Below are positions 29,435 through 50,487 of a stretch of DNA of 64,000 bases, piece by piece; position 1 is the stretch's first letter, and every line of letters starts with the position of its first letter. The notes under the pieces are model-generated. The model was given only the letters and a program-made list of their open reading frames with translations, was not told the DNA's origin and made no database searches. The position numbers were made by a program, and so were the translations under genes. The stretch is taken from assembly GCF_004216475.1 (NCBI RefSeq), contig NZ_CP022303.1, positions 2,604,001 through 2,668,000 of the forward strand. The letters run 5' to 3'. The stretch is from Thalassococcus sp. S3. Lineage in GTDB: Bacteria > Pseudomonadota > Alphaproteobacteria > Rhodobacterales > Rhodobacteraceae.

Positions 29435-29459
29435 ATTAACGCTACATTTCATTCAGATA

Positions 29460-30910: not shown

Positions 30911-30976
30911 ATTTTCGAAGAATGGAGGTGTAGGGGTGCGGGGGGTTGGCGGCTTGGTTATGAGCCGCCGGGCGCG

Positions 30977-33957: not shown

Positions 33958-33968
33958 GGCTGACCCCC

Positions 33969-35214: not shown

Positions 35215-35540
35215 GCGCACCTCCCACCATCCGAGAAAACGACCTCGGCGCCCGCGACAGCCATGACTGCGGCGACGTAGTGCCACGCGGCGGAGTTTTC
35301 GCAGCGCAGCCAGTTTTTCACTTGGCGTGGCGACACATCGAGAACGACTGCCGCTTTCTGCGCCAACTCGGCCTCAGATCGTGCTGGGAAAGCCTGCCAA
35401 AGCAGGCTGGCGAACATCTTTCGAGACGCGGAAACCTGATCCACGTCAGAATGGGCAAGATTTTTCCGCATAACTACTCCATGTTTCCGGTGTGCTTGGG
35501 AAACAGGAACAGGATCAGAAAAGGAGGGGGCGCGGGTCAT
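35211..35540 (-). CDS. Helix-turn-helix early regulator
   Basis: A 109-residue protein; an internal ATG would remove the first 23 residues. ARSEAELAQKAAVVLDVSPRQVKNWLRC is a helix-turn-helix, followed by a short hydrophobic C-terminus. It overlaps its neighbours by ATGA on both sides. It is the second gene of the leftward early operon; a CII-like or second Cro-like role is plausible. Confidence 0.65.
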   Translation of the reverse strand: MTRAPSFSDPVPVSQAHRKHGVVMRKNLAHSDVDQVSASRKMFASLLWQAFPARSEAELAQKAAVVLDVSPRQVKNWLRCENSAAWHYVAAVMAVAGAEVVFSDGGRCA

Positions 35541-35818
35541 TGGCTTGCGCCCTCAATGGGTGAGTGCAGGCGCGCGATCATTTCAGCGGTAATCTCGAAT
35601 TGGCGGCGACGGCCAGCCAGCAAAACGCTGTGGTGATACCTTGACGGGATTGAACACTTCTCAGCCCACTTGTGAACCTGGTGTGTTGTCACCTGCAGAT
35701 CGGGCGATAGGCTGCAGATATCCGATGCCAACTCAGCGCGCGTCGGCCAAAGGTTCACAAGTTCGCGTATAGTTGACACATGTTTCACGCCCATTTCGAT
35801 AATGGACATAAGTTCCAT
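35537..35818 (-). CDS. Cro-like early regulator
   Basis: A 93-residue protein: RAELASDICSLSPDLQVTTHQVHKWAEKCSIPSRYHHSVL is a Cro/YdaS-type helix-turn-helix with the residues that follow the recognition helix. It is the first gene of the leftward operon, divergent from the Xre repressor. The operator at 35803-35817 lies across its first codons, so the annotated start may be upstream of the true one (an ATG four codons in is possible). Confidence 0.75.
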   Translation of the reverse strand: MELMSIIEMGVKHVSTIRELVNLWPTRAELASDICSLSPDLQVTTHQVHKWAEKCSIPSRYHHSVLLAGRRRQFEITAEMIARLHSPIEGASQ

Positions 35819-35857
35819 TCGTCAAGTGTCAAAACAAACCTATGGACGTTTTTTCCA
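35803..35857. promoter_or_regulatory. Operator pair between repressor and Cro-like gene
   Basis: Two copies of the 15-bp dyad TGGA-N7-TCCA: TGGACATAAGTTCCA at 35803-35817 and TGGACGTTTTTTCCA at 35843-35857. On the minus strand the first one falls in the 17-base spacer between TTGACG and a weak -10, so a bound repressor would block the leftward promoter. The second lies just ahead of the repressor start, suiting autoregulation. Confidence 0.7.
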
Positions 35858-35877
35858 CTGTGCCGGACAATTGCCGC

Positions 35878-36189
35878 ATGAAGAAGATAATTGAGTCCCT
35901 CGTTCCGCGAGAGAGTTCGCCTGAACGCGTTGGCCCCAGAATCACCGGGGCTCGTATGGTTTTGGACCTATCAAAGGCACAGTTTGCTGACGCTATTGAG
36001 CTAGACAGGAGCACACTGACTAAGGTCGAGAAGGGCGAAAAAGGTCTTGATATCGCAAAGGGCGTGCGGATTGCTGACCTCTACGGATTTGGTCTGGACT
36101 ACATTTATCGCGGGGACCTTTCGGATGTTCCTCTCGATTTGCGACCAAAGCTGGTCAAAGCTCTCGAGAGCTTGACCGACACGGCATAG
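35878..36189 (+). CDS. Xre-family lysogeny repressor
   Basis: The start is ATG 35878; an ATG at 35842 would place an operator inside the coding sequence. The 103-residue product is MKKIIESLVPRESSPERVG, then a Xre helix-turn-helix (LDLSKAQFADAIELDRSTLTKVEKGEKGL) and a short C-terminus without a RecA-type cleavage domain. So induction would not be by standard LexA-like autocleavage. It is divergent from the Cro-like gene and lies between two operator pairs. Confidence 0.8.
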   Translation: MKKIIESLVPRESSPERVGPRITGARMVLDLSKAQFADAIELDRSTLTKVEKGEKGLDIAKGVRIADLYGFGLDYIYRGDLSDVPLDLRPKLVKALESLTDTA

Positions 36190-36316
36190 GCCCGAGCAAT
36201 TCGCCAACCCGTGATCCGCGCCAAGATCAGGGTCATCGCATCACTAAACTTGTATTTCATTCTCGCTCCTCCCGTTTGCGAATGCCCATCCGGCCTTTGA
36301 TGTAGGGAGTCTTTGA

Positions 36317-36361
36317 TGGAACTTTTGTCCACTTCGTACTTGACAGTGGAACAAATGTCCA
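36317..36361. promoter_or_regulatory. Second operator pair, ahead of the rightward operon
   Basis: Two more copies of the same dyad, TGGAACTTTTGTCCA at 36317-36331 and TGGAACAAATGTCCA at 36347-36361. They are 30 bases apart, about three helical turns. A -35-like TTGACA at 36340-36345 sits directly before the second copy, matching the arrangement at the leftward promoter. The site would let the repressor also silence the zinc-finger, methyltransferase, AlpA and integrase operon. Confidence 0.7.
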
Positions 36362-36380
36362 TTCTCTTCGTAGGCATTAG

Positions 36381-36401
36381 ATGCCTGAAGCGTTCAGGCA
36401 T
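36381..36401. repeat. 9-bp perfect dyad downstream of the operators
   Basis: ATGCCTGAA (36381-36389), a GCG loop, then TTCAGGCAT (36393-36401). No T-run follows, so it is not a terminator; a second regulator site or an RNA hairpin in the leader is more likely. Confidence 0.6.
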
Positions 36402-36447
36402 GGAAAGGCCACACTTCTTTCAATCCCGCTGAACAGAGGCAGCCACC

Positions 36448-36477
36448 ATGATGATCGAAGACATAGCGAAAGCATGA
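36448..36477 (+). CDS. Nine-codon leader reading frame
   Basis: MMIEDIAKA then TGA, with GAGG eight bases before the first ATG. The stop is three bases before the next gene's ATG at 36481, which has no ribosome site of its own, so reinitiation after the leader is plausible. The frame may also be a remnant. Short and uncertain. Confidence 0.3.
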   Translation: MMIEDIAKA

Positions 36478-36480
36478 CTC

Positions 36481-36813
36481 ATGCAAACGCAGATATCGCC
36501 CGCCAGCGGCAGAGGCCGAAAAAAGCACCAAGGGGAGGCTGAGGCCCTGCCCTCGCTGCGCAACGGCTTTTGTGACTACTGCGGTGATCCGCTCCCTAAG
36601 TCATCCCGCGCCCGTCACGCGCGGTTTTGCTCACCCACATGCCGCAAGAACTGGTGGATCGTTGCGCGCAATCGAGGAGCGCAGCTCTATCAGCTTCTCT
36701 TAATCTGGCGTTTGCATCGCGGTCGGCGCGGGACACCCGGCCAAGGCATGATCAATCTGATCTCCGCGCAGATCGACCGCTGGATCAGCGAGGACCGCCG
36801 AGGTGCAGAATGA
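36481..36813 (+). CDS. Small zinc-finger phage protein
   Basis: A 110-residue protein with [12 protein letters not shown] and [14 protein letters not shown] near residues 30-60, a Cys2-Cys2 zinc ribbon. It has a basic N-terminus and a helical C-terminus ([16 protein letters not shown]). It is the first substantial gene of the rightward operon and overlaps the methyltransferase start by about ten bases. Zinc-ribbon proteins of this kind often regulate or accompany phage DNA enzymes; the role here is unknown. Confidence 0.65.
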
Positions 36814-38029
36814 CTGGTCCTACTACAACGAATTCGATCCGCACGCCGCTGAGTGGCTTCGGCGCCTCATTGAGGCCAAGGTTATTGCCCCCGGTCTGGT
36901 CGATGAGCGAGATATTCGAGACGTGTGCCCGCGCGATCTTGAAGGCTTCACCCAATGTCATTTCTTCGCTGGCGTGGGAATTTGGTCCTATTGTCTTCGA
37001 CAAGCCGGATGGCGCGACGATCAACCCGTCTGGACAGCATCTGCTCCCTGTCAACCTTTCAGCGCGGCAGGCGCAGGCGATGGGTTTGATGATGAGCGGC
37101 ACCTATGGCCCGCCTTCCACTGGCTCCTCCAGCAGTGTCGCCCTGAAAAGGTGGTTGGAGAGCAGGTTGCAAGCAAAGACGGCCTCAACTGGCTCGACCT
37201 TGTATCGGCTGACTTGGAAGGAACGCTTTACGCCATCGGGGCAGTCGATACCTGCGCTGCGGGCTTCGGTGCTCCGCACATCCGGCAAAGGCTCTTCTGG
37301 GCGGCCGAGGATCTGCGACCTGCCACAGGCTGGATGGGCCACAACGGCGGCCCGGGACTGGAAATCGGAGAGCGCGTCGAGCGAATTCAACCGGGAAAGA
37401 TGGGCACATTCGAGAGGCAAGCCTTTGTCGGCAGAAGCGCAGCTTGCGAGCTGGCCAACGCCGAAGGCATCGATCGGGGACTATCAGAGGGACAGGAGAG
37501 GTGCGAAGGTCATGAACCTGTCGGGCATCGCCAAGATGGCGGGTTGGCCAACTCCGATGGCGGGCACACCAGCCCAGAACGGAAACAACGCGGCGGGCAA
37601 CACGGACAGCAGTCGCAGTACTGTAGAGCTCGCGGGATGGCCAACACCAGTGGCAAAGGACGACAACAAGTCGCCGGACGCCCACTTGGCGATGAAACTG
37701 AGAATGGGCGAGCGCGACGGGACACACTCCAGACGCAGCACGATCACATCTCTCAACGTCATGGCGAAGACAGTCGGCCCGGCCCGACTAACGGTTTCTG
37801 GCGAGATGCTGACTGGCTCTTCTGCCAGGATGGATACTGGAGGCCAGTTGAACCCGGCACATCCCCGCTGGCTACAGGGGCTACCGCACGCATGGGACGC
37901 CTTAGCGCCTACGGAAACGGCCTCAACACTGCGCAAGCAACGGCGTTCATTGAAGCCTACATGGAGCGGCACATTGTGGACCTGACCGAAACCATTGCAG
38001 GCAACCTGTTTGAGTGGAGTGGGATATGA
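36803..38029 (+). CDS. C5-cytosine DNA methyltransferase
   Basis: The start is GTG 36803. The 408-residue product has motif [12 protein letters not shown], motif [15 protein letters not shown] with the catalytic Cys, motif VI as VVGEQVAS (ENV replaced by EQV), motif [18 protein letters not shown] and motif [13 protein letters not shown]. The region between about 200 and 320 is low-complexity, rich in Gly/Arg/Gln ([16 protein letters not shown]), and would be the target-recognition part. It methylates cytosine, protecting phage DNA from restriction or marking it. A different frame of the same DNA is also open (see next). Confidence 0.85.
36903..37985 (+). CDS. Long overlapping frame within the methyltransferase gene
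   Basis: Open from at least 36903 (ATG, 360 residues; the frame is open from 36627) to 37985, in a different frame from the methyltransferase. Its product has [32 protein letters not shown] and repeated GWPTP motifs, and ends with [21 protein letters not shown] recall these as a recurring family in phage databases; here each WPTP lies over the methyltransferase's LAN-type segments. Either a true overprinted gene or a recurring misannotated shadow of these methyltransferase genes. Kept at low confidence as a gene. Confidence 0.3.
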
Positions 38030-38307
38030 GCGAGAGCGAGACCAAGCTGGAAGACCGAACCTTTGATAACGTTTCGGCGTTCGGATCGCGCCTTTGGGTT
38101 GCGTCTCGTTTGGGTGTGAGCCTCGATACATTCTATCGAAAACGTGAGAGTCTTGAGGAGAAGGGTTTTCCGAAACCGGACCCATTGCTCAACCTTTACA
38201 ACAAGGCAGATGTTGACGCCTGGAACGAGACGAGGCGACAAATCAAAAATGCGAACGGCTCCTCGTCAACAGGGAGCGAAGCGGGACCCAGACTCAATGC
38301 CGTATAG
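38026..38307 (+). CDS. AlpA/excisionase-like DNA-binding protein
   Basis: The start is ATG 38026, overlapping the methyltransferase stop as ATGA. The 93-residue product has WVASRLGVSLDTFYRKRESL and GFPKPDPLLNLYNKADVDAW, a winged-helix/MerR-like pattern of AlpA-type regulators and excisionases. It precedes and overlaps the integrase, as expected for a recombination directionality factor. Confidence 0.75.
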   Translation: MSESETKLEDRTFDNVSAFGSRLWVASRLGVSLDTFYRKRESLEEKGFPKPDPLLNLYNKADVDAWNETRRQIKNANGSSSTGSEAGPRLNAV

Positions 38308-39499
38308 ATCTGCCCTTTGGGATGACAGCGATCCTGACTACGCCCCCGGGATAAACTATGCCAAGGGCTTGGCGTACTGGCGCCCGAGCAACACTTACAC
38401 CGCAGTTGGATTTCCAAAAGACAGCATCAAACTGCCGGGTCGGAAAGGAGACCATCTCCATCGCGTCCGCGCAGCCGAATGCCGACGCCTAACCAGAGAC
38501 ATGATCCGCGCTGTCAGCGCGGATGACACGGCAGAGATAGGAACATGGGATTGGGTGATGCAGTCTTGGGTAGCCGACAAGTATTCCCGCTATCACCAAG
38601 GCAAACAAAACACCCGCGAAAGTCATGACTACGTCTTGCGGAAGCTGTCCAGCATCATTGGCCATATGAGGATCGAGCAACTCACCTACAGAGAGATGTG
38701 TCAAATCCGCGAGGCGATGGAGATCAAAAAGCGATCATCATCTTACAAGAAGAAGATGTTCGGTATGATTTCCACCTTGGCCCGTTACGCGGCTGGACCT
38801 CTTAGGCAGCACCAGGCTCGTGACGTTCTGCAGGACCATGGTGAGATCGTGATTCAGTCGGACCCCAAACGTCACTCGGCTCCAGACGCCGCGATGATAC
38901 GTGCGATTGTTGACGAAGCAGATGGTCGAGGTCTATTCGCCTTCGCAACCGGTCTTCTCATCCAGTGGACCTACATGCTTCGCGCCGTGGATGTGCGGGG
39001 GCAGTGGCTCGATGCCGAGGAAGCAGACGGAGGTTTGTATCGCAACGGGAAGCGTTGGCAGGATGGCCTTACGTGGGACATGTTCGACGCGGATCTGACA
39101 AAGTTCGAGAAGGTGATCAGTAAGACACGCAATAGCCTTCCGGAGACAATGACATTCACGGTAACGCCGGAGATCCGGTCGAGACTTGCTCTTCTCAGCA
39201 ACGACTGCAGGCGCGTTGGACCTGTTATCGTGTCAGAACGCTATCGGCGGCCATACACGCGTTATAGCTGGTCTCAGGCCTTCAGGCGCATCAGGGATGA
39301 CCTGAAGCTGCCCGAGACAGTCTGGATGATGGACACACGTGCGGGCGCAATTACTGAAGCGCAGGGATTGGTCTCCGACCCTTTCACCTTGCGCGATGCC
39401 GCACAGCATCTTCACGTTGAAACCACAGACGGTTATGCCCGTGCGCGCTCGGAGAACATCAATAAGGTTGTTCAGTTACGGTCATCCAAGAAAAAATGA
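38249..39499 (+). CDS. Tyrosine-recombinase integrase of prophage 1
   Basis: The start is ATG 38249 inside the preceding gene's end, giving 416 residues. The catalytic domain has YMLRAVDVRG (first Arg), MMDTRAGAITEAQ (second Arg; the usual His of H-x-x-R is Met), RDAAQHLHVETTDGYARA (final His and Tyr). An RAGAITEA variant of this box is seen in some alphaproteobacterial phage integrases. It would integrate and excise prophage 1, and it lies next to the tRNA-derived att repeat. Confidence 0.88.
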   Translation: MRTAPRQQGAKRDPDSMPYRSALWDDSDPDYAPGINYAKGLAYWRPSNTYTAVGFPKDSIKLPGRKGDHLHRVRAAECRRLTRDMIRAVSADDTAEIGTWDWVMQSWVADKYSRYHQGKQNTRESHDYVLRKLSSIIGHMRIEQLTYREMCQIREAMEIKKRSSSYKKKMFGMISTLARYAAGPLRQHQARDVLQDHGEIVIQSDPKRHSAPDAAMIRAIVDEADGRGLFAFATGLLIQWTYMLRAVDVRGQWLDAEEADGGLYRNGKRWQDGLTWDMFDADLTKFEKVISKTRNSLPETMTFTVTPEIRSRLALLSNDCRRVGPVIVSERYRRPYTRYSWSQAFRRIRDDLKLPETVWMMDTRAGAITEAQGLVSDPFTLRDAAQHLHVETTDGYARARSENINKVVQLRSSKKK

Positions 39500-39597
39500 A
39501 TCGGAACACCTGCAAACGCAGCTTCCAACTCTTGATCCAACCACTGAATTACTTACAACCAGCCGATAAGCTAAAGCACTGATTTACTTTAAGAAAG

Positions 39598-39644
39598 TGG
39601 TCGGGGCGGCAGGATTCGAACCTACGACCCCCTGTACCCAAAAC
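39598..39644. repeat. attL-type 47-bp copy of the tRNA-Pro 3' part
   Basis: Identical over 47 bases to 50411-50457, from the encoded CCA end back through the T-arm and variable region into the anticodon loop. It carries no 5' tRNA half, so it is an att remnant rather than a gene. It lies between integrase 1 and integrase 2, within a 309-base stretch (39500-39808) without a gene. Confidence 0.9.
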
Positions 39645-39774
39645 CGATATAGGTCATCTGTGCGGTTAAACGCCATTCGGTTTGATACGGCTCAATACGT
39701 TGAATTTATTTACTGAATCTCTCCTTCCTGACTCTTGTAAGCGATTCGTTCGGTGCCATATGGTGTCAAAGCGT

Positions 39775-39794
39775 AGTAGCTCATTTGGTAGCTG
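39775..39794. promoter_or_regulatory. Left arm-type integrase sites
   Basis: AGTAGCT at 39775-39781 and GTAGCTG at 39788-39794, 13 bases apart, just ahead of the integrase ribosome site. The same core occurs three times inside the other end of the element. Such paired arm sites would bind the integrase and may also let it control its own promoter. Confidence 0.5.
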
Positions 39795-39808
39795 GAACGG
39801 AGACACCC

Positions 39809-41107
39809 ATGCCCAAGATCGAATTTACCGCCCCCGCAGTGAAGGCCCTGAGGGAGAACACAGACACCACTCCGGGCACCTACTTTGACACCAAGTTGCC
39901 GGGGTTCGGTCTGAGGGTGAGCAAGCGGACACGCAAATTCGTCGTCGTGGGGTACGTTGCAGGGAAAAAGGTTTGGGTCACTCAAGGGCCGTCCGAGTTG
40001 ACACTCCCCAAGGCGCGCAAGTGGGCTGAGGGTGTGCTGGGTGATCTGGCGAGAGGCATAAACCCGAACGCCGCCAAGGCGGAGCAGCGGGCGGCTGCCA
40101 TGAAGCTGAGCGAGGCGCTGGACACCTACCTAAATGACAACGACCTAAAGGAGTCCACCGCCACCGAAAACCGCCGCTTGATCGAGCGGGACTTGAAAGA
40201 CTGGTTGAACAAAGACGTGAAACACATCACGCGCCAAATGGTTGTCAACCGCTTTGACAAGCTGACAGAGCGAAGCCCTGCCATAGCTAACCATGTGTTT
40301 TGGGTGCTGCGGGCGATCCTGAACCACACGCGCGTTGTCACCAAGAATGAACAAGGTGAGTTTACCCTGCCCCCAAACCCGTGCGACCGCTTGACCGACC
40401 TCAAACGCTGGCACAAGCCCCAAGCCCGCAAAGGGACGGTCGCAATAGATCAGTTTCCGGCGCTGATGGATGCTCTGGTGGAGATGGACCAGACATTTGC
40501 AGACTACATCATGGTGTTGCTGCGAACAGGTATGAGGCGGACTGAGGCCGCGTCCCTCCGATGGACCGACATTAGCTTTGATGCCTCCACCTTCACAATC
40601 CGGGCTGAGGTGGCCAAGAACAAGAAAGCAGTCACCCTGCCCGCTTCTAAACAGGTCATGGCGATATTCGAACGTCGCAGCGATGCCGCACCAGACACGC
40701 TTCACGTCTTTGGCGACTCCAAGCGATACGACCCAAGAAAGTCGCTCTTAAAGCTGCGTAAGGCCCTGGGGTCGGACCTCACCTATCATGACTGCCGCCG
40801 CACCTTCTTACAGTTGGCAGAAAACCAAGAGGTGCCCACGGGTTTCATCAAGAAGCTGGCGAACCACACAGACAGTCGTGACGTGACCGCCGCTCACTAT
40901 ACGAACCAATCCGATGCTGAGGCCCTGAGGCCGTACACGCAGCGGATCAGCGATCAGATTGACCGCCTCGGGCACCTCGACAATCCTGATCTTGCGGCAC
41001 GCGATGCGCTGGAAAGCCTTAAGAAGGCGATAGAAGGCATTGAAGAATTTGAACAGTTTGCGCCTGCTGCGGATCGTTTGAAGCGGATAATGACGGAACT
41101 TGCCTAA
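39809..41107 (+). CDS. Tyrosine-recombinase integrase of the satellite
   Basis: The start is ATG 39809 with ACGGAG upstream; a TTG 24 bases earlier lies in the arm sites. The 432-residue product begins with an arm-binding domain (YFDTKLPGFGLRVSKRTRKF, the DUF4102-like pattern). The catalytic domain has LLRTGMRRTEAASLRW, YHDCRRTFLQLAE (H-x-x-R), LANHTDSRDVTAAHYTN (His and Tyr). All key residues are present. It should insert the element at tRNA-Pro. Confidence 0.92.
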   Translation: MPKIEFTAPAVKALRENTDTTPGTYFDTKLPGFGLRVSKRTRKFVVVGYVAGKKVWVTQGPSELTLPKARKWAEGVLGDLARGINPNAAKAEQRAAAMKLSEALDTYLNDNDLKESTATENRRLIERDLKDWLNKDVKHITRQMVVNRFDKLTERSPAIANHVFWVLRAILNHTRVVTKNEQGEFTLPPNPCDRLTDLKRWHKPQARKGTVAIDQFPALMDALVEMDQTFADYIMVLLRTGMRRTEAASLRWTDISFDASTFTIRAEVAKNKKAVTLPASKQVMAIFERRSDAAPDTLHVFGDSKRYDPRKSLLKLRKALGSDLTYHDCRRTFLQLAENQEVPTGFIKKLANHTDSRDVTAAHYTNQSDAEALRPYTQRISDQIDRLGHLDNPDLAARDALESLKKAIEGIEEFEQFAPAADRLKRIMTELA

Positions 41108-41289
41108 TCAAACCGCATGGACCCGGATATGAACCACCCTTCGCCAAACCGATTGAAAACGTTCGCAATGGCAGCTAGTTGCAGGGTGCATCCGTACACG
41201 GAGGATGGGCGAACAGGCTGCGGTCAGAAAGCGTCCCGGAAGCGTTAAGCCCGCATTCTGCGGGGTAACCGTTCTGTGGAGGTGCAATC

Positions 41290-41514
41290 ATGCCCCTGAC
41301 AAAGAAGCCGTCTGACCGCCCGTCCCTGTCCCCCAAGCAAGCCGCTGAATACACCGGCGGCGCTTTATCTTATCAATTCTTGAAACGCGACCGCGCCGAA
41401 GCTGAGGCCAATGGCGTTCCCCCTCAAATTCCTTACTACCGCGTGTCCTATCGGGTAGTCCGGTATCGCCCATCAGACCTAGACGCTTACCTAGAAGCAC
41501 TGCGGGTGGGCTGA
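41290..41514 (+). CDS. AlpA-like satellite regulator
   Basis: A 74-residue protein from ATG 41290, seven bases after GGAGG. PSLSPKQAAEYTGGALSYQFLKRDR is a winged-helix recognition region, and YRVVRYRPSDLDAYLEAL is the AlpA-type end. In PICIs, AlpA is the master activator or the excisionase. It lies 182 bases after the integrase; a CCCGC/GCGGG hairpin lies in that gap at 41250-41264. Confidence 0.8.
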   Translation: MPLTKKPSDRPSLSPKQAAEYTGGALSYQFLKRDRAEAEANGVPPQIPYYRVSYRVVRYRPSDLDAYLEALRVG

Positions 41515-41517
41515 GTC

Positions 41518-42489
41518 ATGGCCAAGAAATCCGAAATTGTTTCATGGGATGCCCTGCGACGCGACGTAGCTGCTTTAGACCAGATATGCCTCGCCCTCGT
41601 TCCAAAACGCCAGAAACGGCAATCTGCGGCGGTGCTGCGTTATCTCATACGCTCTTGGAACACGCGGACCACCCGCTACAACGGTGCCGTGCCGGGGGAG
41701 TGGATATCGCGATCTATCGACCAGATGTTGAAAGCTAACCTGGCCAATTCGCGCAACCCGCTCAACGAATACCTGCAAAGACTTGGACCGCCCCGAGAGT
41801 CTGCAAATTGCGTGCGCGATGAATGTGCTAATCTGATCGTGCGTAAGCGGATGAAGTATGGCGCAAAATCGAAGGTGGTGGTTCCGCATTTCCAACTGTC
41901 TCGCGAACTGTTGGATTTGTTGGAGGCCATCGACTTCGCAAGGCGTAAAATGCCCGAAAAGACATTCAAGGCGTTCCGTGACCTCATTTGTGAGCCGATC
42001 AATGATGCCACACCCAAAGAGGCATACGACTACGGGCCAACCTACCATCTCGCCCGGATTGCGTTCAAACACCGGGCCTCGCATCGCTACAACTTCGATG
42101 ACTTCAAAGCCGATATTGAGGCCTTGCACACAAAGGCAAACACCTTCGATCCAAAGGCATCGTCAAATCCTGTTTCAGGACAATCTGTAGGTTATCCTGA
42201 TTCAGGACATCCTTTAGGTTATCCTGTTTCAGGACAACCTGATCTGATTACAGGGCCTTCTAAGGAAGTTGGTACAGAGGGATTGAAAACAGAGTGCGGA
42301 CAAGCCGCTCCCACGTCTGTTTCAACCGAGGAGATTTTTCAGGCTGTAGATGTTGGAAAAGACACGCTGTCTGACAATGAGAAGCTGAAGGTTCAAGAGG
42401 CTGCATCACAAGCAAAGAAGGAAGCTGCGCAAGATGCCAAACACGCTGCCCTGATGGCAAAGTACAAGAAGTCGGGGGCGAAAGCATGA
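41518..42489 (+). CDS. Satellite replication-type protein with internal iterons
   Basis: A 323-residue protein, four bases after AlpA. The N-terminal 210 residues are helical and basic (RQKRQSAAVLRYLIRSWNTR, FKAFRDLICEPINDAT), with no recognised helicase or primase motif. The middle carries nine-residue repeats (PVSGQSVGY, PDSGHPLGY, PVSGQPDL), encoded by 27-base iterons. The C-terminal end is charged (AASQAKKEAAQDAKHAALMAKYKK). Iterons within a gene are known for initiators such as lambda O. I infer an initiator role from that; it is not shown by domain. Confidence 0.6.
   Translation: MAKKSEIVSWDALRRDVAALDQICLALVPKRQKRQSAAVLRYLIRSWNTRTTRYNGAVPGEWISRSIDQMLKANLANSRNPLNEYLQRLGPPRESANCVRDECANLIVRKRMKYGAKSKVVVPHFQLSRELLDLLEAIDFARRKMPEKTFKAFRDLICEPINDATPKEAYDYGPTYHLARIAFKHRASHRYNFDDFKADIEALHTKANTFDPKASSNPVSGQSVGYPDSGHPLGYPVSGQPDLITGPSKEVGTEGLKTECGQAAPTSVSTEEIFQAVDVGKDTLSDNEKLKVQEAASQAKKEAAQDAKHAALMAKYKKSGAKA
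42169..42249. repeat. Three 27-bp iterons, candidate satellite origin
   Basis: Units start at 42169, 42196 and 42223, each opening with the palindrome CCTGTTTCAGG or CCTGATTCAGG, followed by ACAATCTGTAGGTTAT or close variants. The spacing is exactly 27 bases, so the repeats fall in the same reading frame. They are followed by a stretch richer in A and T. Confidence 0.75.
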
Positions 42490-42701
42490 AAGAGCGATAC
42501 CAGCCCGATCTATCTGGTCGGACCAGAGAGTCCGTGATCCGTGTGCGGATGCCAAGAAACATGAACAACGCATGGCGAACGATCTGCAAGGCCAAGGGTG
42601 CCAATCCCTGCGAAGCCATCCGCGATCTGGTGGAACGCGAAATTCGAATGCACCACCAAATGGATGATGCTGGACCCGATCTGATACCAGATGACAAGTG
42701 A
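42486..42701 (+). CDS. Ribbon-helix-helix DNA-binding protein
   Basis: A 71-residue protein, ATGA overlap with the replication gene. ESVIRVRMPRNMNNAWRTICKAKGANPCEAIRDLVEREI fits the ribbon-helix-helix fold (Arc/CopG-like). It could control the replication gene or the packaging operon. Alternatively it might serve as a small terminase subunit, since none was found elsewhere, but that is speculative. Confidence 0.6.
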   Translation: MKERYQPDLSGRTRESVIRVRMPRNMNNAWRTICKAKGANPCEAIRDLVEREIRMHHQMDDAGPDLIPDDK

Positions 42702-42740
42702 TGGATTCACCGCAACGCCCCAGCCTGTTACTCTCACCTT

Positions 42741-42832
42741 ATCACCGGGCGCTGATCTTCTATCCCGTGTTTGATCATGGCAACGCCGATAGGTTTCAGA
42801 CTCCACGCGCAATCGCCATAGCGCCCGGTGAT
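42741..42832. repeat. 13-bp perfect inverted repeat in the gap before the accessory gene
   Basis: ATCACCGGGCGCT (42741-42753) and AGCGCCCGGTGAT (42820-42832) with 66 bases between. It lies in the 275-base gap between the early and packaging parts of the satellite. It could be a packaging site, a control site or a structured RNA. No T-run makes a terminator unlikely. Confidence 0.65.
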
Positions 42833-42976
42833 CCTCACCCAAGCCCATAGGGAACCCTGCCGCCTGGGGGGGAACCCACGCAACGATCGGAGGGGCGGGG
42901 CGTAAACACTCAATTCCCTGTTGTAACACTTTTGCAGGTGATACTGTCTGTCTGCTTAACTTATTCAGGGGGGCCG

Positions 42977-43633
42977 ATGGACAGAAATCACGAGACGATA
43001 CTGGAGAACGCTCAGCAAGAAGTAGATTATGTCAAAGACTATTTAGATGATCTTGCGGCAGAGGAGGAAACGAGGAAACTATGGCGTGCATGGTTTGGCG
43101 TGCTCACGCACTATGTCAACGCTGTTTCTGCGCTACGCCGTGCAACTTCTTGTGGTGCGTCGAAAGGTTGGTCGGATAACCTTAAGAACGAGCAAAAACA
43201 AGATGAGTGGTTACGGTTTGCGTTCCAAGCAAGGGATGCAGCGAACCACGTCTTTGAATCTAAGCGACATACAGAGCCTCGAAGAGCGAGCGTAGGTGTT
43301 ATCTCAATGTCCAATGCTGCGCACGTTCACATTTCCGACTACACTGAACTTGACCACGAAGGAAATGTGGTAACTCGATACTCTGGAGCGCTTGACGTAG
43401 CCGATGGCCGGTACACTCACGGTACTTTTCCTCGAGACAAAGTCGAAGAACACGAGCATCAGCTTGTGCTTACGGAAGTAAAAACTCGCAGCGGTACCTA
43501 CGCACCACCGAAAACTGAGAGTACAGGCACGCAGCAAGCGATTGAGATAGGGAATTACCTGTTGGACTGGCTACGTCAGAAGTTGTTTGAGGCACAAAAC
43601 CTAGCCGAACAAGACAGGAAAAAGAACCGTTAA
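42977..43633 (+). CDS. Satellite accessory protein, unknown
   Basis: From ATG 42977, with AGGGGGG upstream, 218 residues. No known domain: helical N-terminus (ILENAQQEVDYVKDYLDDLAAEEETRKLW), RFAFQARDAANHVFESKR, a middle beta-like part (HVHISDYTELDHEGNVV) and a helical end (IEIGNYLLDWLRQKLFEAQ). The gene is less GC-rich than its neighbours and lies between replication and packaging modules, the spot where satellites carry accessory or anti-phage genes. Function not assigned. Confidence 0.6.
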   Translation: MDRNHETILENAQQEVDYVKDYLDDLAAEEETRKLWRAWFGVLTHYVNAVSALRRATSCGASKGWSDNLKNEQKQDEWLRFAFQARDAANHVFESKRHTEPRRASVGVISMSNAAHVHISDYTELDHEGNVVTRYSGALDVADGRYTHGTFPRDKVEEHEHQLVLTEVKTRSGTYAPPKTESTGTQQAIEIGNYLLDWLRQKLFEAQNLAEQDRKKNR

Positions 43634-43746
43634 GGCTAGTATGATACATCCAAACTGACCAAACTGGTCACCCCCTTGAACCACTAGCCCTCTAATCTGG
43701 CCTTGCCCCGTTGACCGTCTGGACTCATGGGGCTTAGGCCAGATGT

Positions 43747-45270
43747 ATGGCCCTGCGACTGCGTAAACCCAAGGTATTGACGAAAACCGATCTGTTGGCG
43801 GATTGGGTGGCAGATACCTTTGTGGATCAGAACGGGGCACCGCTTACGCTCTGCCAGTTTCAGTATGACTTTCTATCTGATCACTTTGCGGATGATCCGG
43901 CTGGCGGGCCGCTCTACAGAACCACCGTTCTTAGCACCGGGCGCAAGAACGGCAAGACGGTCACGCTGGCCTTGCTGGTGGCGGGCTATCTTGATCCGTC
44001 CAGCCCCTTACACGTGCCCTTTGCTCAAGTGGCCATCAACGCCCCCACCTCCCGTCATGCTGAGTTTCTGCCAGAGGCCATCAAGCTGTTGTATGACCGG
44101 ATCGACCGGGGCAGCGACTGGTCATTCAACAAAGCCCCGCCACCCACGTTCCGGCACAAGGGCGGCAAGGGCAAGCTGACCTGTCTATCGGGTGCCCGTG
44201 CCTCAGGGCATGGCCTCGACCTCGACCTTGCGCTTGTGGACGAAACGGGCCTTATGCCCAAATCCAATGAAACGGTGCAAAACACCTTTGACGCTGTGGC
44301 CTCGAAAGACGGGCGCGTGATCCTGACTGGCACGCGGGGCGACTCCGACACCTACAACGAGATCATCAACAACCCCGACGCCCGCACAAAGGTGCATCTG
44401 TATGGCGTGGACAAAGACGCCAACGCCTCTGACCCTGCGACGTGGGCACAAGCGAACCCCGGCCTAGGCGTCACAAAGTCTCGCCGCTTCATGGAAGATG
44501 CCCACGCCAAGGGTGAGCAAGCGGGTTCCCTAACAGAGTTTCGTGTGTGGCACCTCAACATGCCGCTCAGCCCAACCCGGCAACTCTTACTGGAATATGG
44601 GGACTTAACCAAAGCCTATGACGAAACCGCCGACCCCATTTCGGGTGAGCCGTGTTTTGTGGGCATGGACCTAGGCGGGTCCAGCGCCATGACCGCCGCC
44701 GTAGTGATGTATCAGGAAAGCGGCGTGATCCGGTGCATCGGCGCTTTTCCCGGTGAGGGCACCCTTGATCTGGCCAAGCGCGGCAAGCGTGACGGTGTAG
44801 GCAATGCTTACGTGACTGCTGCTGAGCGCGGGGAACTGTTTGAAACCTCAGGTGCGGTGACAGACGTTGCTGAGTTTCTGGACCGTCTACGGGACTTCAT
44901 CGGGCCTCACCCGGTCCTGTCTGTCTCTGCCGACCGCTACCGCGATGCTGAGTTTCGCACGGCTATGGCGCGGGCCAAGATTGATTGGCCGATTATCACC
45001 CGTGGCACCGGACCAAAAGACGGGGACAATGACATTCGGGCCACGCGCCGAGTGTTCCTGTCTGGCAAGGCCAAGCTACGGCGCAACCTGCTACTAGAGG
45101 CGGGGCTGACTGAGGCGGATGTGAAGGTGTCCACCACGGGCGCGATGCAAATCGACAAGTCGCACCGCAACGCCCGGATTGACGTTGCCCAAGCCCTCAC
45201 GCTGGCCTGTGCGGCCTTTGTCGCTGATCTGGATGCACCCGCCGCCGAAATGGAGGTGACGGTGCTATGA
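43747..45270 (+). CDS. Satellite terminase large subunit
   Basis: A 507-residue protein with Walker A VLSTGRKNGKTVTLAL, Walker B DLALVDETG, motor block RVILTGTRGDSDTY, and nuclease residues in CFVGMDLGGSSAM, VSADRYRDAEF and RIDVAQAL. It differs clearly from the prophage 1 TerL in sequence and length. So the satellite packages its own DNA. It is the first gene of the packaging and head operon and overlaps the HNH gene by ATGA. Confidence 0.92.
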   Translation: MALRLRKPKVLTKTDLLADWVADTFVDQNGAPLTLCQFQYDFLSDHFADDPAGGPLYRTTVLSTGRKNGKTVTLALLVAGYLDPSSPLHVPFAQVAINAPTSRHAEFLPEAIKLLYDRIDRGSDWSFNKAPPPTFRHKGGKGKLTCLSGARASGHGLDLDLALVDETGLMPKSNETVQNTFDAVASKDGRVILTGTRGDSDTYNEIINNPDARTKVHLYGVDKDANASDPATWAQANPGLGVTKSRRFMEDAHAKGEQAGSLTEFRVWHLNMPLSPTRQLLLEYGDLTKAYDETADPISGEPCFVGMDLGGSSAMTAAVVMYQESGVIRCIGAFPGEGTLDLAKRGKRDGVGNAYVTAAERGELFETSGAVTDVAEFLDRLRDFIGPHPVLSVSADRYRDAEFRTAMARAKIDWPIITRGTGPKDGDNDIRATRRVFLSGKAKLRRNLLLEAGLTEADVKVSTTGAMQIDKSHRNARIDVAQALTLACAAFVADLDAPAAEMEVTVL

Positions 45271-45611
45271 CCCGCAAACAGGACCGTTCCACCATTGACC
45301 TGGCCGACTGGCGCAAACGCATCCGTCCCGCCATAGCCGAACGTGCCGAATACCGTTGCGAGTCTTGTGGCCTGTTTGTCGGGATGCACGGGGACGTTGA
45401 CCACAAGGTGCCGCGCCATCGGTGTGAGGCTGAGGGCATAAACCCGCGTGACCCTGAAAACCTCCAATATCTCTGTAAGTCCTGCCACTCGATCAAGACC
45501 AACCGTGAACGCTGGGACGGGCATAAGCGGAAGGATCGGCAAGAGGTACGCCGCGCCCGCGTGACTGGCAGAGGTGCCTTTCTGCAAGCCCTGCAAGAGG
45601 GGGGTGCGTGA
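45267..45611 (+). CDS. Satellite HNH endonuclease
   Basis: A 114-residue protein with CESCG, VDHKVPRHRCEAEGINPRDPENLQYLCKSCHSIKTNR, the complete zinc-binding HNH fold with both Cys pairs. HNH proteins accompany TerL in cos packaging. It overlaps TerL upstream by ATGA and the next gene by four bases. Confidence 0.9.
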   Translation: MTRKQDRSTIDLADWRKRIRPAIAERAEYRCESCGLFVGMHGDVDHKVPRHRCEAEGINPRDPENLQYLCKSCHSIKTNRERWDGHKRKDRQEVRRARVTGRGAFLQALQEGGA

Positions 45612-46255
45612 TGGCCCATACAGTCACCCTTGAAACTGAATTTGACGGCAAGCGGTATCAGCGGGCCAGTGTAGGTCTCAGGGCCTTGGCTGATAGCGTG
45701 GGCGCTGACTTCGATCAGCTTGGCCTTGTCGTGTCCCATGAGATGCGCCTGTTTCTGAAAACCGAACTGGACAAGCTGGCCAAGCATCATTCCGGGTCTG
45801 CCACCACGTCCAACCGACTGGCCAAGCGAACCGGGGAACTAGTCCGGGCACTTCAAAAAGGCGGGCGGGTCACAGAGACGCCGACGCTTGCCGATGTGAA
45901 GGGTGAGGTTTTTCTGCCCTCGAAATATCGCATCCATGAATACGGCGGCTCAATCCGCCCCCAGAAGGGCGGCTACGTCTTTGTGCCGTTGCCTGCTGCC
46001 CTGAAATCAGACGGCACGCCTAAGCATATGAACCCGCGCCAGTGGCACGGCACGTTCATTGCCGAAAGCCGCAAGGGCAACCTGCTGTTGTTCCAACGGC
46101 AAGGGCCAAAGCTGATCCCGCTCTACGCCCTGAAACCCCGCGTCTCAGTCAAACGCCGCCTTGGGCTTGGGGCCAGTATCCGCCGGGGCGTGCCCGCCTT
46201 TGCAGACCGTGCCTTTGAAGCCCTCTTAAACGAAATCCTCCAGAACGAAAGCTGA
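45608..46255 (+). CDS. Satellite head-completion (gp10-like) protein
   Basis: A 215-residue protein. FLPSKYRIHEYGGSIRPQKG is the marker of gp10-like and Mu virion-morphogenesis-type neck proteins (Y-A/I-x-x-H-E-x-G), and FADRAFEALLNEI is the terminal helix. It likely joins head to tail, so it may be the adaptor that accepts a helper tail. No tail-tube gene follows. Domain assignment is by pattern only. Confidence 0.65.
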   Translation: MMAHTVTLETEFDGKRYQRASVGLRALADSVGADFDQLGLVVSHEMRLFLKTELDKLAKHHSGSATTSNRLAKRTGELVRALQKGGRVTETPTLADVKGEVFLPSKYRIHEYGGSIRPQKGGYVFVPLPAALKSDGTPKHMNPRQWHGTFIAESRKGNLLLFQRQGPKLIPLYALKPRVSVKRRLGLGASIRRGVPAFADRAFEALLNEILQNES

Positions 46256-46259
46256 CAAC

Positions 46260-47519
46260 ATGTTGAAATCCCAAGAGATCACCCTTGCGCAGTCCAAACG
46301 CCGGGAACGCATGGCCGAAATCCAAAAGGCCGATGAAATCACCGATGACGCCCGCACCGAACTGCGGTCACTCACCGATGCCTACCAAGGGGCTGAGGTG
46401 GAATTGCGGGCGGCGCTGATCCTCGAAGATCAGGAACGCGACAAGATCAAAGAGCCTGACAACGCCGAACGCTCTTTTGAGGCTGAGTGCCGCCAATTCG
46501 ATCTGTCCAGCTTCATTTCTGACCTGAGCGCCGACAAGGCTCTGACGGGCCGTGAAGCGGAGGTTTCCGCCGAATTGGAGCAACGCCACGGCAGGGCGCA
46601 AAAAGGTGGTGATCGGTTCCCGTGGGAAGCCCTGACCCTTGAAACTCGCGCTGATGTGGAAACCACGCAATCCGCGTCCGGTGATCTGGCCAGTCGTCCG
46701 ACCATGACCGCGCTGGAACGGTTCTTTGAAGCCTCTGCCGCGCAACGTTTTGGCGTCCAGACGATCCAAGCGACGGGCAACCCGTCATTCCCTGAGATCA
46801 CCGGGGGCACGGGCCTGTCATGGGTATCTGAGGGGACCGGGGCCGATGCTGCGGCCATCACCACCACCGCCCAAAGCCCTGACCTGCACACGGCAACCGG
46901 GCGCTATCTGCTGAGCCGTCAAGCCATCCGCAAGAACCCCGCGCTGGATGCGATGCTGCGGCGCGATCTGGCAGAGGTAATGCGGGAAGGAATTGACCTT
47001 GCCGTGTTCCAAGGCACCGGGGCCTCAGAAGAACCCGCTGGCCTTGCCACTATTCTGGACGGCCAAGCCATTGACGTGAGCGACAAGGCGTCATTCTCGA
47101 CGCTGTTGCTGCACGCCACCGAACTGCAAGAGACGGCCAAACTGTCTGACCCGTCTCAGGTGCGTATTGCCGGGGCGCCGATCCTTCACCAGACGCTTGC
47201 AGATACCCTGATCACGGGCACCGCCGTGTCCGAATTGGACCGCCTGAAAAGTGCTGGGTTCTCGCCCATGTTCTCGCAACAGGTATCTACGCGCGGCAAC
47301 CGTGACGCCACCGACAAGGGCGCATCTACCGTCTACATGAGCGCCGGTGGTGGCCGTGCCTATCTGGTGAACTGGGGAAGCCCAGAATTGCTGGTGGACC
47401 CTTACAGCGAAAGCAAGACTGGCAAGGTGGCCCTGACCATGTTCGCATTCGTGGACGTGCTGGTGCAGCGGGCGGCAACGCACTTTGCGAAGCTGGAAAA
47501 CGTGCAGGACCGCGCATAA
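46260..47519 (+). CDS. Satellite HK97-family major capsid protein
   Basis: A 419-residue protein with a charged N-terminal helix region (RRERMAEIQKADEITDDARTELRSLTDAYQ) that is probably the delta/scaffold part. The capsid fold shows TALERFFEASAAQRFGVQT, TGLSWVSEGTG, LLSRQAIRKNPALDAMLRR and AFVDVLVQRAATHFAKLENV at the end. It would form the satellite's own capsid, likely smaller than the helper's. The protease lies downstream, not upstream. Confidence 0.9.
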   Translation: MLKSQEITLAQSKRRERMAEIQKADEITDDARTELRSLTDAYQGAEVELRAALILEDQERDKIKEPDNAERSFEAECRQFDLSSFISDLSADKALTGREAEVSAELEQRHGRAQKGGDRFPWEALTLETRADVETTQSASGDLASRPTMTALERFFEASAAQRFGVQTIQATGNPSFPEITGGTGLSWVSEGTGADAAAITTTAQSPDLHTATGRYLLSRQAIRKNPALDAMLRRDLAEVMREGIDLAVFQGTGASEEPAGLATILDGQAIDVSDKASFSTLLLHATELQETAKLSDPSQVRIAGAPILHQTLADTLITGTAVSELDRLKSAGFSPMFSQQVSTRGNRDATDKGASTVYMSAGGGRAYLVNWGSPELLVDPYSESKTGKVALTMFAFVDVLVQRAATHFAKLENVQDRA

Positions 47520-48106
47520 TGGAACGCCGCGCCATCTGGGCCGCGTCTGACCTAGAGGTGCGGCAACAGGATAAGCGCCCCGTAATTGCGGGCCGCTTTC
47601 CTTACAACGAATGGGCGGTGCTGTCTGATCGGGGCACCGTCCGCAAAGAAGAGATCATGCCGGGGGCCTTTGACTTCACTCTGTCCAACCCTCTGGCAGA
47701 AGTGAACCTGCTGTTTGGGCATTCCTTCGACAAACCCTTGGCCAGCCGTCAATCGGGCACTCTCGAACTCAAAGACGGGGCCAAGTTTCTGGAATTCTTC
47801 GCCACCATTCCTGAGGGGGCCGAACGGGCCAGCCATGTGGTGGATGCTCTTGCTCTGATCGGCTCTGGATTGGCCACTGGGATTAGCCCCGGTTTTCGTG
47901 TGCCGCCCAAAGACGTGGTGCCCGATGCTGAAAAGCTGGTGCCAGAACCCGGCAACGCGGGCGTGATGATCCGGCAACTCGCCAAGCTGGTGCTTTACGA
48001 ACTCAGTATTGTGACGCGACCAGCTTATCCCACCACATCTGCGGAACTGCGCAGCATGTCGTGCAATCAATTGCACGGCGGTCAACATAAGGTGTTGCTG
48101 CCATGA
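47519..48106 (+). CDS. Satellite HK97-type prohead protease
   Basis: A 195-residue protein: LLFGHSFDKPLASRQSG (His), ATGISPGFRVPP (Ser), and LYELSIVTRPAYPTT (Glu), the herpesvirus-type triad of HK97 proteases. It processes the capsid delta domain. It starts at the last base of the capsid stop (TAATG) and overlaps the connector by ATGA. The order capsid then protease is reversed compared with prophage 1. Confidence 0.92.
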   Translation: MERRAIWAASDLEVRQQDKRPVIAGRFPYNEWAVLSDRGTVRKEEIMPGAFDFTLSNPLAEVNLLFGHSFDKPLASRQSGTLELKDGAKFLEFFATIPEGAERASHVVDALALIGSGLATGISPGFRVPPKDVVPDAEKLVPEPGNAGVMIRQLAKLVLYELSIVTRPAYPTTSAELRSMSCNQLHGGQHKVLLP

Positions 48107-48663
48107 TTGAACACTTTGAGACCAAATGGAGCTTCGGCGCTGACCCTATGGACCCTCAGGCCAGCGACATTGCCCTAGAGGCGGGCACCTCAGAACTCAC
48201 CGCGCAAGGTATGCTGAGCGCGTCCTGGGCCATGGTGGAGGCCTTCACGGGTAAGACCTACCGGGACACCACTGCGGGCCAAGTCATTGTCAAAGTGAGC
48301 GCGCCAATGGTCTGGACGTGGCCCCGGTATCCGTTCCCTGAGGAACTGACCTTTGAAGCCTACGCCCAAGGCTCTTGGGTGCAACACGCAGAAACTTACA
48401 TCCCGTCTGCCGGGTTGATCGAACTTGAGCCGTTCACGCTCTACAGGATCGGACACACCACCACTACGCCGGGGGCAACCGTCACGCCCGCCGTTGAACA
48501 GGCCGTCTACAATCTGACGCTTTACCAACTGCTGCAATCGCCCGCGCGGCGCGAGTTTAAGAGCCAAGCCGCTGGTGATAGTAGCCTGACCCGCGAAACC
48601 CTTATGCCCGTGTTCTATGGGTCTGGCGCGGGCGCGATGCTGGCAGGGGAGATGCGGTTATGA
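48103..48663 (+). CDS. Satellite head-tail connector, gp6-like
   Basis: A 186-residue protein: LSASWAMVEAFTGKTY near the start, then beta segments (QVIVKVSAPMVWTWPRYPF), and helical C-terminal part (VEQAVYNLTLYQLLQSPARRE). This pattern, helix with G-K-T-Y then strands and a helix, occurs in gp6-like connectors. It overlaps the portal gene by ATGA. Confidence 0.75.
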   Translation: MIEHFETKWSFGADPMDPQASDIALEAGTSELTAQGMLSASWAMVEAFTGKTYRDTTAGQVIVKVSAPMVWTWPRYPFPEELTFEAYAQGSWVQHAETYIPSAGLIELEPFTLYRIGHTTTTPGATVTPAVEQAVYNLTLYQLLQSPARREFKSQAAGDSSLTRETLMPVFYGSGAGAMLAGEMRL

Positions 48664-49664
48664 TCTGGCCCTTCAAGCGCAAGATCGAAACACGGGCCGC
48701 CATGGGCGTGACCCTCGACTACATGGATCACCGCCGCAAACAGGTGCTGACCGATGCGGGCGTGAACCTGACCGCGACAACGGGCACTGCGCTGCACTAC
48801 TGGCAGTCAGGCTTTGCGATGCTCACCGATGAAAGCACCACTTTGCGTGCCGACACGCTTGCCGCCATCGGGCGCGACTTGTGCATGAAGGGTGAAAGTT
48901 GCTGGCACATCCGGGCGGATGGATCGGCCCTTGATCTGGTGCCTGTGGCCTACTGGGATGAACTGGGCAACGGGCGGTATCACCTTCACATCGCCCGCGT
49001 GAACACCACTGAGACGGTGAAGGCGCTGGCAGATGAAGTGCTTCACCTCAAGATCAACACCGATCCTGTCCAGCCTTGGAAAGGCCGTAGCCCGTGGCAG
49101 ATGATGGGGCTGACCCCGGCCTTGCTGGCAGAGATCGAATCCGCTTTCTCGACTGCCAGCCGATACGCCGGGAAAGGTGTCCTGCCGTTTCCGTCTGCCG
49201 TGGCAGAGGATCAAAAGGCAAAGGCCGTGTCAGGGCTTCAAAACGGGGCTTTGGCGGTTCTAACCAGCAAGAGCGACTTTGCGCACCAGACAGGCGGGCA
49301 CTCAGCCGAATGGCGGCGCGTTGATTTGTCCCCCGATCTGCAAAAAACAGAATTTCGAGATGTAAGCCGCGATCTGCACATTCGACTGTTGACCGGGTGC
49401 GGTATTCCGCCCGCCTTGATGACCGAAAATGGCAACGCCGGGGCAATGCGGGAAGCCTACCGCCTGTTTGTGCTGCAAACGGTCCAGCCCTTAGCCCGCC
49501 AAATCCTGCCCGAACTCACGGCCAAGCTGGGCCTCACCAGCCTGTCTACGGCTGACATGATGTCCGCTGATATTGCGGGCCGTGCCCGTGCCGTGGGCAT
49601 TTTGACAGGGGCAGGCGTTGACCTTCAAAAGGCGCTGGCCATGGCGGGGTGGGACAGTGAATAG
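48660..49664 (+). CDS. Satellite portal protein, HK97-type
   Basis: A 334-residue protein, short for the family. ALHYWQSGFAMLTDESTTLR and LRADTLAAIGRDLCMKGES come first. DEVLHLKINTDPVQPWKGRSPW follows, a family block. KSDFAHQTGGHSAEWRRVDLSPD, FRDVSRDLHIRLLTGCGIPPAL and MREAYRLFVLQTVQPLARQILPEL close it. It forms the portal vertex. The portal is at the end of the head operon, unlike the usual TerL-portal-protease order. Confidence 0.9.
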   Translation: MIWPFKRKIETRAAMGVTLDYMDHRRKQVLTDAGVNLTATTGTALHYWQSGFAMLTDESTTLRADTLAAIGRDLCMKGESCWHIRADGSALDLVPVAYWDELGNGRYHLHIARVNTTETVKALADEVLHLKINTDPVQPWKGRSPWQMMGLTPALLAEIESAFSTASRYAGKGVLPFPSAVAEDQKAKAVSGLQNGALAVLTSKSDFAHQTGGHSAEWRRVDLSPDLQKTEFRDVSRDLHIRLLTGCGIPPALMTENGNAGAMREAYRLFVLQTVQPLARQILPELTAKLGLTSLSTADMMSADIAGRARAVGILTGAGVDLQKALAMAGWDSE

Positions 49665-50040
49665 CCCGATTGATACAGCCCTGCGCATGGCCAAGGTGTC
49701 GCCCCTCTACTCTGAGGCGGTGCTGTATGGCGTAGCAGAGGAAAGCGGTGCTGCCGTGTTTGATGCCGCTGGCGAGATGCAGTTTGACCGAATTGGCCAG
49801 ACCTACGGCTACGCGGACAAGAGCAAAGAAACTGTGTTCACTGCCAGCCAAACCTATGAAGGGTCACATCTGGTTACGGTGATCACCGACTATGCTCCCA
49901 ACGGGTTAGCGCTGATCCTGCTAGGCCATGTGTTCTACGCCGTGCATTCGGTGCATTCGTCCGATGTGCTGGGAGTGTCTCTTACCCTCGATTGCACCAG
50001 CTTGCCCGCCGATGAACCCCCAAACATTCGGAATGCATGA
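49657..50040 (+). CDS. Satellite small head-joining candidate, unknown
   Basis: The start is GTG 49657, overlapping the portal stop by eight bases, 127 residues. Beta-rich: EAVLYGVAEESGAAVFDAAG and YEGSHLVTVITDYAPNGLAL. The topology fits a head-closure or tail-joining protein, but no motif confirms it. It overlaps the next gene by ATGA. Confidence 0.55.
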   Translation: MNSPIDTALRMAKVSPLYSEAVLYGVAEESGAAVFDAAGEMQFDRIGQTYGYADKSKETVFTASQTYEGSHLVTVITDYAPNGLALILLGHVFYAVHSVHSSDVLGVSLTLDCTSLPADEPPNIRNA

Positions 50041-50315
50041 TGCCAGTCACAAAATCCACACTACCCTTCCGCCCAACCGCCGACATGACGCTTCTGGAAA
50101 TCACCGCCTGCATGGGCGAACTCTTGGAATGGGCTGCAAGCGCCCGCACCAAACAGTTGCTCGATGCTGGCCTGACTGCCACCGATGTGATGCGTCTACG
50201 CCGGATCGGGACGCGCTACCAGCAAGGCAACCGCACCTACTCCGATGCCAGCTTCATCTGGGAGATACTCCCCGCGCTGGAAAACGTGCATATCACCAAA
50301 CCTGCGGATTCGTAG
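50037..50315 (+). CDS. Satellite last small protein, unknown
   Basis: A 92-residue protein: MTLLEITACMGELLEWAASARTKQLL, then GLTATDVMRLRRIGTRYQQG, helical and basic. It could be a packaging or size-control protein or a regulator; the helix-turn-helix-like GLTATDVMRLRRIG would also suit DNA binding. It is the last gene before the right att. Confidence 0.55.
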   Translation: MMPVTKSTLPFRPTADMTLLEITACMGELLEWAASARTKQLLDAGLTATDVMRLRRIGTRYQQGNRTYSDASFIWEILPALENVHITKPADS

Positions 50316-50346
50316 CTGGTGCCGTTTAGTAGCTGTATAGTAGCTG
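50311..50346. promoter_or_regulatory. Right arm-type integrase sites
   Basis: The core GTAGCTG occurs at 50312-50318, 50329-50335 and 50340-50346; the last two are 11 bases apart, one helical turn. They lie 65-99 bases inside the right att copy. The same core appears near the left att. Confidence 0.5.
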
Positions 50347-50410
50347 GAAGTATCTCAGGAAAAATCAGCCCCAAGCTAAATCAGTAAATTACTGATTTTA
50401 TTTTGAAAAA

Positions 50411-50487
50411 TGGTCGGGGCGGCAGGATTCGAACCTACGACCCCCTGTACCCAAAACAGGTGCGCTACCAGACTGCGCCACGCCCCG
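50411..50487 (-). tRNA. tRNA-Pro(UGG)
   Basis: On the minus strand: acceptor CGGGGCG pairs with CGCCCCG, then A and encoded CCA. The anticodon arm CCTGT-TTTGGGT-ACAGG gives the anticodon TGG. The T-arm has GTTCGAATC. 77 bases, all stems intact. The 3' half is the target of the satellite; its copy at 39598-39644 keeps the gene restored after integration. Confidence 0.97.

Follow-up and report, generated by a model that had tools for sequence, protein, structure and literature searches.

The element described here lies on the chromosome of Thalassococcus sp. S3 (contig NZ_CP022303.1), at positions 39598-50457 of a 64,000-nt stretch that spans 2,604,001 to 2,668,000 of the contig and is called the window below. 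It is flanked by two exact copies of a 47-bp repeat, the right-hand one being the 3' end of a tRNA-Pro(TGG) gene (Table 1). A 31-nt piece of this repeat occurs twice in the window, as compared with 0 occurrences expected from 100 shuffles. The original prediction had placed an integrase, a terminase large subunit (TerL), an HNH endonuclease, a capsid, a protease and a portal in these 10.8 kb, and family searches confirmed all of them. All core open reading frames (ORFs) of the element are open. The AlpA gene of the same prediction was recovered in weaker form, as a match to HTH_17 that falls below the Pfam cut-off, and counterparts with 66% and 43% identity occupy the same place in two related elements (L035 and L036, respectively).

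Table 1. Features of the element at tRNA-Pro and of its left neighbour (positions in the window; att, attachment site)
Feature	Position	Strand	Evidence or remark
Tandem siphovirus prophage, apparently complete	1..39597, left 1.48 kb outside window	-	10 genes scanned; candidate helper
Prophage endolysin	4222-5052		
Prophage tape measure	17255-19447		
Left att core, exact 47-bp copy of tRNA-Pro 3' end	39598..39644	+	doubles as prophage right att
Tyrosine integrase	39785..41107	+	Arm-DNA-bind_3 and Phage_integrase (PF00589)
AlpA/excisionase-like small helix-turn-helix protein, weak	41290..41514	+	HTH_17 E 1.5e-4, under Pfam cut-off
Putative replication protein	41518..42489	+	by position only
Small Arc/CopG-like putative regulator, weak	42486..42701	+	phrog_876, phrog_582, E 0.02-0.1
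Accessory protein	42932..43633	+	phrog_23516 E 1.5e-4 (family without assigned function)
Conserved non-coding block before terL	43663..43746	+	84 bp; candidate packaging site (cos) or late operator
Terminase large subunit (TerL)	43747..45270	+	PF20441 E 1.4e-22; ~25% identity to HK97 TerL
HNH endonuclease	45267..45611	+	PF01844
HK97-gp10/Neck1-type head-tail joining protein, probable	45608..46255	+	weak but consistent evidence
HK97-fold major capsid protein	46260..47519	+	PF05065 E 2.5e-11
S78 prohead protease	47519..48106	+	PF04586 E 6e-20
Putative head-tail adaptor (connector)	48103..48663	+	position and conservation
Portal protein	48660..49664	+	PF04860
Head-closure (stopper) protein	49657..50040	+	stopper fold
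Small conserved protein, no function given	50037..50315	+	28% in L035, 48% in L053
Right att core inside tRNA-Pro(TGG)	50411..50457	+	tRNA 50411-50487 (-)

The gene set recalls that of capsid-forming phage-inducible chromosomal islands (cf-PICIs), reportedly the satellites of Alqurainy et al. 2023, for which an AlpA protein, an S78 protease and an integrase are among the characteristic traits. Present in the element are its own capsid, maturation protease, portal, TerL and HNH gene as well as a clear integrase, while the AlpA-type regulator is weak; among the connectors, the stopper fold is clear, the gp10-type protein weak and the adaptor placed by position. None of the element's genes matched a tail, holin or endolysin family in Pfam and PHROG scans. 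The same scans were applied to 147 of the 219 non-core ORFs of relatives, taken from 18 of 24 att-bounded elements. The 24 Pfam families matched include head completion and no tail or lysis family, and the 25 listed of 100 matching PHROG families include head-tail adaptor and head closure. The search for tail and lysis families that the original prediction had proposed therefore came out empty in Pfam, both for the element and for the relatives' 147 ORFs. The claim that every such gene is missing stands for recognised families and is probably to be qualified by the gp10-type neck protein, homologues of which were found in 8 of 160 loci and in neither L035 nor L036. On the scanned ORFs, neck proteins belong to this kind of element, and these ORFs included no recognised tail tube, tape measure or fibre. 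In some relatives an extra gene precedes the gp10-type gene (L055:6809-7342 and L062:6161-6652); it is perhaps a tail terminator, the match being weak and present in one of the two only (L062, non-significant at E 0.013). No second gene of this kind was seen ahead of the gp10-type gene in the window element.

The original prediction held that an example from the Rhodobacteraceae would be notable. The element is not a lone one: among 394 sampled genomes of the family, 45 (counting that of the element itself) have a capsid match, with a cut-off of E 1e-10. Of twenty regions fetched, 18 share the element's order of TerL, capsid, protease and portal; the exceptions are a capsid-only match (L054) and a broken remnant without TerL and the N-terminal part of the capsid (L053, genome G053). 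Repeats of at least 28 nt spaced 10.1–12.1 kb apart were present in 12 of the 20. Relatives were also collected from named genomes (best 80 of 159) and from IMG/VR (best 80 of 415), two collections that overlap and in which several loci are the same element. All five core genes were found at 76 of the 80 genome loci, each time in the order TerL-HNH-capsid-protease-portal, and on 70 of the 80 IMG/VR contigs, many of them fragments, with 68 in core order. Pairs of tRNA-linked repeats, 9367–11731 bp apart (median 10.4 kb), flank the element at 42 of the 80 genome loci and span 13 tRNA types. The original prediction had also considered that relatives might turn out to be full prophages, and those examined are the same tailless elements of ~10–11 kb.

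Hosts of the 80 genome relatives are mostly Rhodobacteraceae sensu lato (Tateyamaria, Phaeobacter, Shimia, Mameliella, Jannaschia, Paracoccus, Ruegeria), and the remainder are other Alphaproteobacteria, one Salinisphaera and one Oceanospirillaceae bin. A class-wide sample of 385 genomes, searched with a capsid profile at E 1e-15 and thus with a query and threshold unlike those of the family survey, gave matches in 7 genomes, again including its own. Three of the seven matched via long frames (594–705 aa) with a phage-like look, and frames of 420 and 434 aa (G672, G731) belong to other families. This result suggests that the kind is concentrated in the Rhodobacteraceae. In L063, L070, L097, L107 and other distant members, an ORF of at least ~350 codons lies beside the right-end tRNA; judged by position and length, it may be an integrase replacing the left-end one. 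One accessory ORF among the 18 scanned relatives has a weak Pfam match to Arr-ms, a rifampin ADP-ribosyltransferase (E 3.7e-5), and some of these satellites may therefore carry cargo genes. The accessory gene of the window element had no PADLOC match.

Similarity to phages is distant. The capsid matched 10 of 50,697 phage records, with a maximum identity of 26.2%; three of these ten records have a long annotated capsid gene (2.0–2.9 kb). Identities to phage proteins were 30–35% for the protease (among the 25 of 67 matches listed) and about 25–26% for TerL (among the 20 of 217 listed). On the other hand, capsid identity to close satellite relatives is 56–76%, and a tree built from 96 capsids places the window sequence in a clade that comprises 18 satellite rows, some of them duplicate records, and has a support of 100/99. 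The closest likeness among phages is to HK97-like siphophages, which share the TerL relationship (~25% to HK97), the HK97-fold capsid, the S78 protease and the stopper fold, and which carry full tail and lysis modules. In the element, as opposed to the long capsid gene of the three phage matches, capsid and protease are separate genes, and the portal comes after the capsid.

Indications of mobility came from relatives with terminal repeats. Four loci (L089, L131, L187, L202) have identical ends of 56–144 bp and a unit size of ~10 kb, and a fifth (L201) wraps at 10,411 bp, which suggests circular or concatemeric forms. The title of the L131 record, a Gemmobacter serpentinus contig with a unit of 10,340 bp and 96-bp identical ends, gives a coverage of 941, with no baseline for comparison. 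No separate att copy was found in the two genomes checked genome-wide, where a short core could be missed.

A whole-genome search returned three copies of the att core, at G000:C1:2602518, 2643599 and 2654412. The window starts at 2604001, and the first of these copies lies 1483 bp to its left, outside the window. The core common to all three sites is 44 bp. From copy one to copy two is 41,080 bp, the extent of the element's left neighbour, and the element and this neighbour therefore stand in tandem at one tRNA. The neighbour looks like a siphovirus prophage, seemingly complete: the ten genes scanned all matched phage families (TerL, portal, capsid, Neck1, tail terminator, tape measure, tail protein, tail fibre/J, a baseplate/fibre-like protein and endolysin). 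Outside the att match of 44 bp, element and prophage have no significant protein or DNA similarity (best protein E 0.09; one 16-nt match, E 0.38). Beside the shared att site, the presumed prophage integrase (38144-39499) drew no supportive match from either Pfam or PHROG and is perhaps a divergent tyrosine recombinase. The prophage also encodes a cytosine-C5 DNA methyltransferase (36803-38029; phrog_363, E 1e-71).

Taken together, the sequence evidence indicates that the element is very probably an integrated capsid-forming phage satellite, which would make its own small heads and need a helper for tails and lysis. Its integrase would insert it at the tRNA-Pro 3' end and, together with the AlpA-like protein, would excise it. 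During growth of a tailed phage in the host, the element would replicate, form procapsids out of the capsid, protease and portal that it encodes, package its ~10.8-kb genome by means of its own TerL and HNH protein, probably with the conserved block ahead of terL as the starting point, and close the heads with its own adaptor, stopper and gp10-type neck proteins. Tails and cell lysis would have to come from the helper because no recognisable tail or lysis genes are present in the element.

By position and gene content, the tandem tailed prophage is an obvious candidate helper, and its tail genes and endolysin could supply what the element lacks. We nevertheless lean somewhat towards the prophage standing outside the satellite's life cycle, with tRNA-Pro being merely an integration hotspot that both use; this judgement is made within the satellite explanation, and its odds do not add to those of the competing readings. 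The absence of homology beyond the att match fits such a coincidence, as does a case in Phaeobacter marinintestinus (L227/L228/L036, G213:C23), where a related satellite and a 20.6-kb island stand side by side in tandem at tRNA-Asn, with three att copies, and the island has no apparent phage structural genes on reading its ORFs. A more ambitious proposal combines a matched helper-satellite pair forming a tandem lysogen, whose shared 44-bp core at three sites would allow separate or joint excision, with packaging that dispenses with a small terminase (TerS), TerL and HNH reading the block before terL, and with a separate ancient lineage of capsid-forming satellites centred on the Rhodobacteraceae. 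As a whole, we consider this combination doubtful.

Two readings would do away with the satellite altogether. It is very unlikely that the element is an autonomous tailless virus or a particle like a gene-transfer agent, the heads of which would be released and enter cells without helper tails: the head, packaging and integration set does look complete, and contigs with terminal repeats come from metagenomes as well as isolates, but the portal, stopper and gp10-type neck proteins act in head-tail joining in phages, and no lysis or receptor-binding gene was found. Hardly credible is a decayed prophage that has lost its tail and lysis genes, a deletion-remnant reading for which the phage origin of all head genes and the broken relative L053 could be cited; it is strongly disfavoured, as the identical tailless layout and size recur in scores of genomes at many tRNAs, the relatives examined are not full tailed prophages, the window element's core ORFs are all open, no phage record holds a close capsid, and significant similarity to the neighbouring prophage ends with the att core.

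Several observations nonetheless weigh against the satellite interpretation. No small terminase was recognised in the element or the scanned relatives with Pfam and PHROG, which a divergent TerS could escape. The replication gene of the original prediction keeps its place by position, with neither a Pfam match nor a supportive PHROG match and with a 27% match at the equivalent position in L036. The connector it named was likewise assigned by position and has no Pfam or PHROG match; conservation in six close relatives (37–71% identity) speaks for it. The gp10-type protein belongs to the tail side of the head-tail joint in phages, and one relative has a clear match to 'tail completion or Neck1' (L071:5245-5652, E 1e-10). 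While no tail family is among the 25 PHROG families listed for relatives, a rare tail match is possible in the other 75. An empty integration site was not obtained, the left-flank genes being absent from the relatives' loci searched, and the terminal repeats may instead reflect an episome or assembly overlap.

With regard to packaging, the one matching PHROG annotated 'terminase small subunit' (phrog_4581, E 1e-10) falls on the HNH gene, where it ranks below three HNH families. PF05119 matched neither within the elements, in any of the 13 genomes searched, nor in the tandem prophage, so its reach is limited. The 84-bp block before terL is a candidate cos site, with an operator equally possible. 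It is 88% identical to L057, the one relative compared, in the best local alignment, as compared with 59% identity over 475 aligned columns for the start of terL, and it contains an 8-bp inverted repeat (ATCTGGCC, 43695-43702; GGCCAGAT, 43737-43744). A different motif, [AG]GGG[AG][AC]CCCTG, was picked after inspection of alignments. It occurs near terL in 13 of 142 loci versus 6 occurrences across 1.83 Mb elsewhere: 85–115 bp ahead of the terL match in nine close-clade loci and 308 bp ahead in two, several of these being duplicate records, and just within the match in two more. The window, L057, L061 and L143 showed no copy of it ahead of terL.

Known systems are compared here as the available parts of the cited papers describe them. 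Like cf-PICIs, the element unites in one small island an integrase, an AlpA-type regulator, a PF05065 capsid, an S78-type protease, a portal, neck proteins, a TerL and an HNH gene, and it has no recognisable tail genes. The original prediction saw in this the defining cf-PICI pattern, which is accurate for the head and packaging genes and the missing tail; the published definition, however, comprises capsid, protease, portal, connectors, HNH and both terminases, with only tails from a helper (PMC10690885), and no small terminase was recognised here. The present family also differs in size (~10.4 kb, against a cf-PICI average of 14 kb) and in its hosts, Rhodobacteraceae and other Pseudomonadota, which lie outside the main-host list in the available text, where Rhodobacteraceae do not appear (PMC10803314). 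Capsids of cf-PICIs form three clades (PMC11389934). The element would work like a cf-PICI; we refrain from classing it among them, as no small terminase was found and no cf-PICI sequence entered the comparison, the likeness being one of description with Pfam PF05065 in common. Similarly, cf-PISP TG54 of Vibrio crassostreae has a PF05065 capsid, portal, protease, adaptor, closure protein, HNH and terminases, but it is episomal, with no integrase and a distinct tyrosine recombinase, whereas the element here is chromosomal at tRNA genes (PMC13230959). The Streptomyces satellites MulchRoom and MiniFlayer also carry their own capsid and packaging genes, and for MulchRoom, which has an integrase, the use of helper tails is inferred; they differ as actinobacterial phages with TerS and scaffold, no primase and direct terminal repeats (PMC10690885). 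The word 'satellite' is absent from the available text of a Paracoccus prophage survey (PMC6536676).

New in this analysis are the third att copy that revealed the tandem prophage, the lack of a recognised small terminase and the conserved 84-bp block before terL. The missing small terminase, if real, raises the question of how packaging starts, and the tandem prophage offers a ready test system for helper choice. Reports of head-building satellites come mainly from enteric and Gram-positive hosts and from Vibrio, as far as the available texts go (PMC10803314, PMC13230959). If the satellite interpretation is true, such elements would be common in the Rhodobacteraceae, which form a major group among coastal bacteria, and public viral contigs would already include hundreds of them (415 IMG/VR matches).

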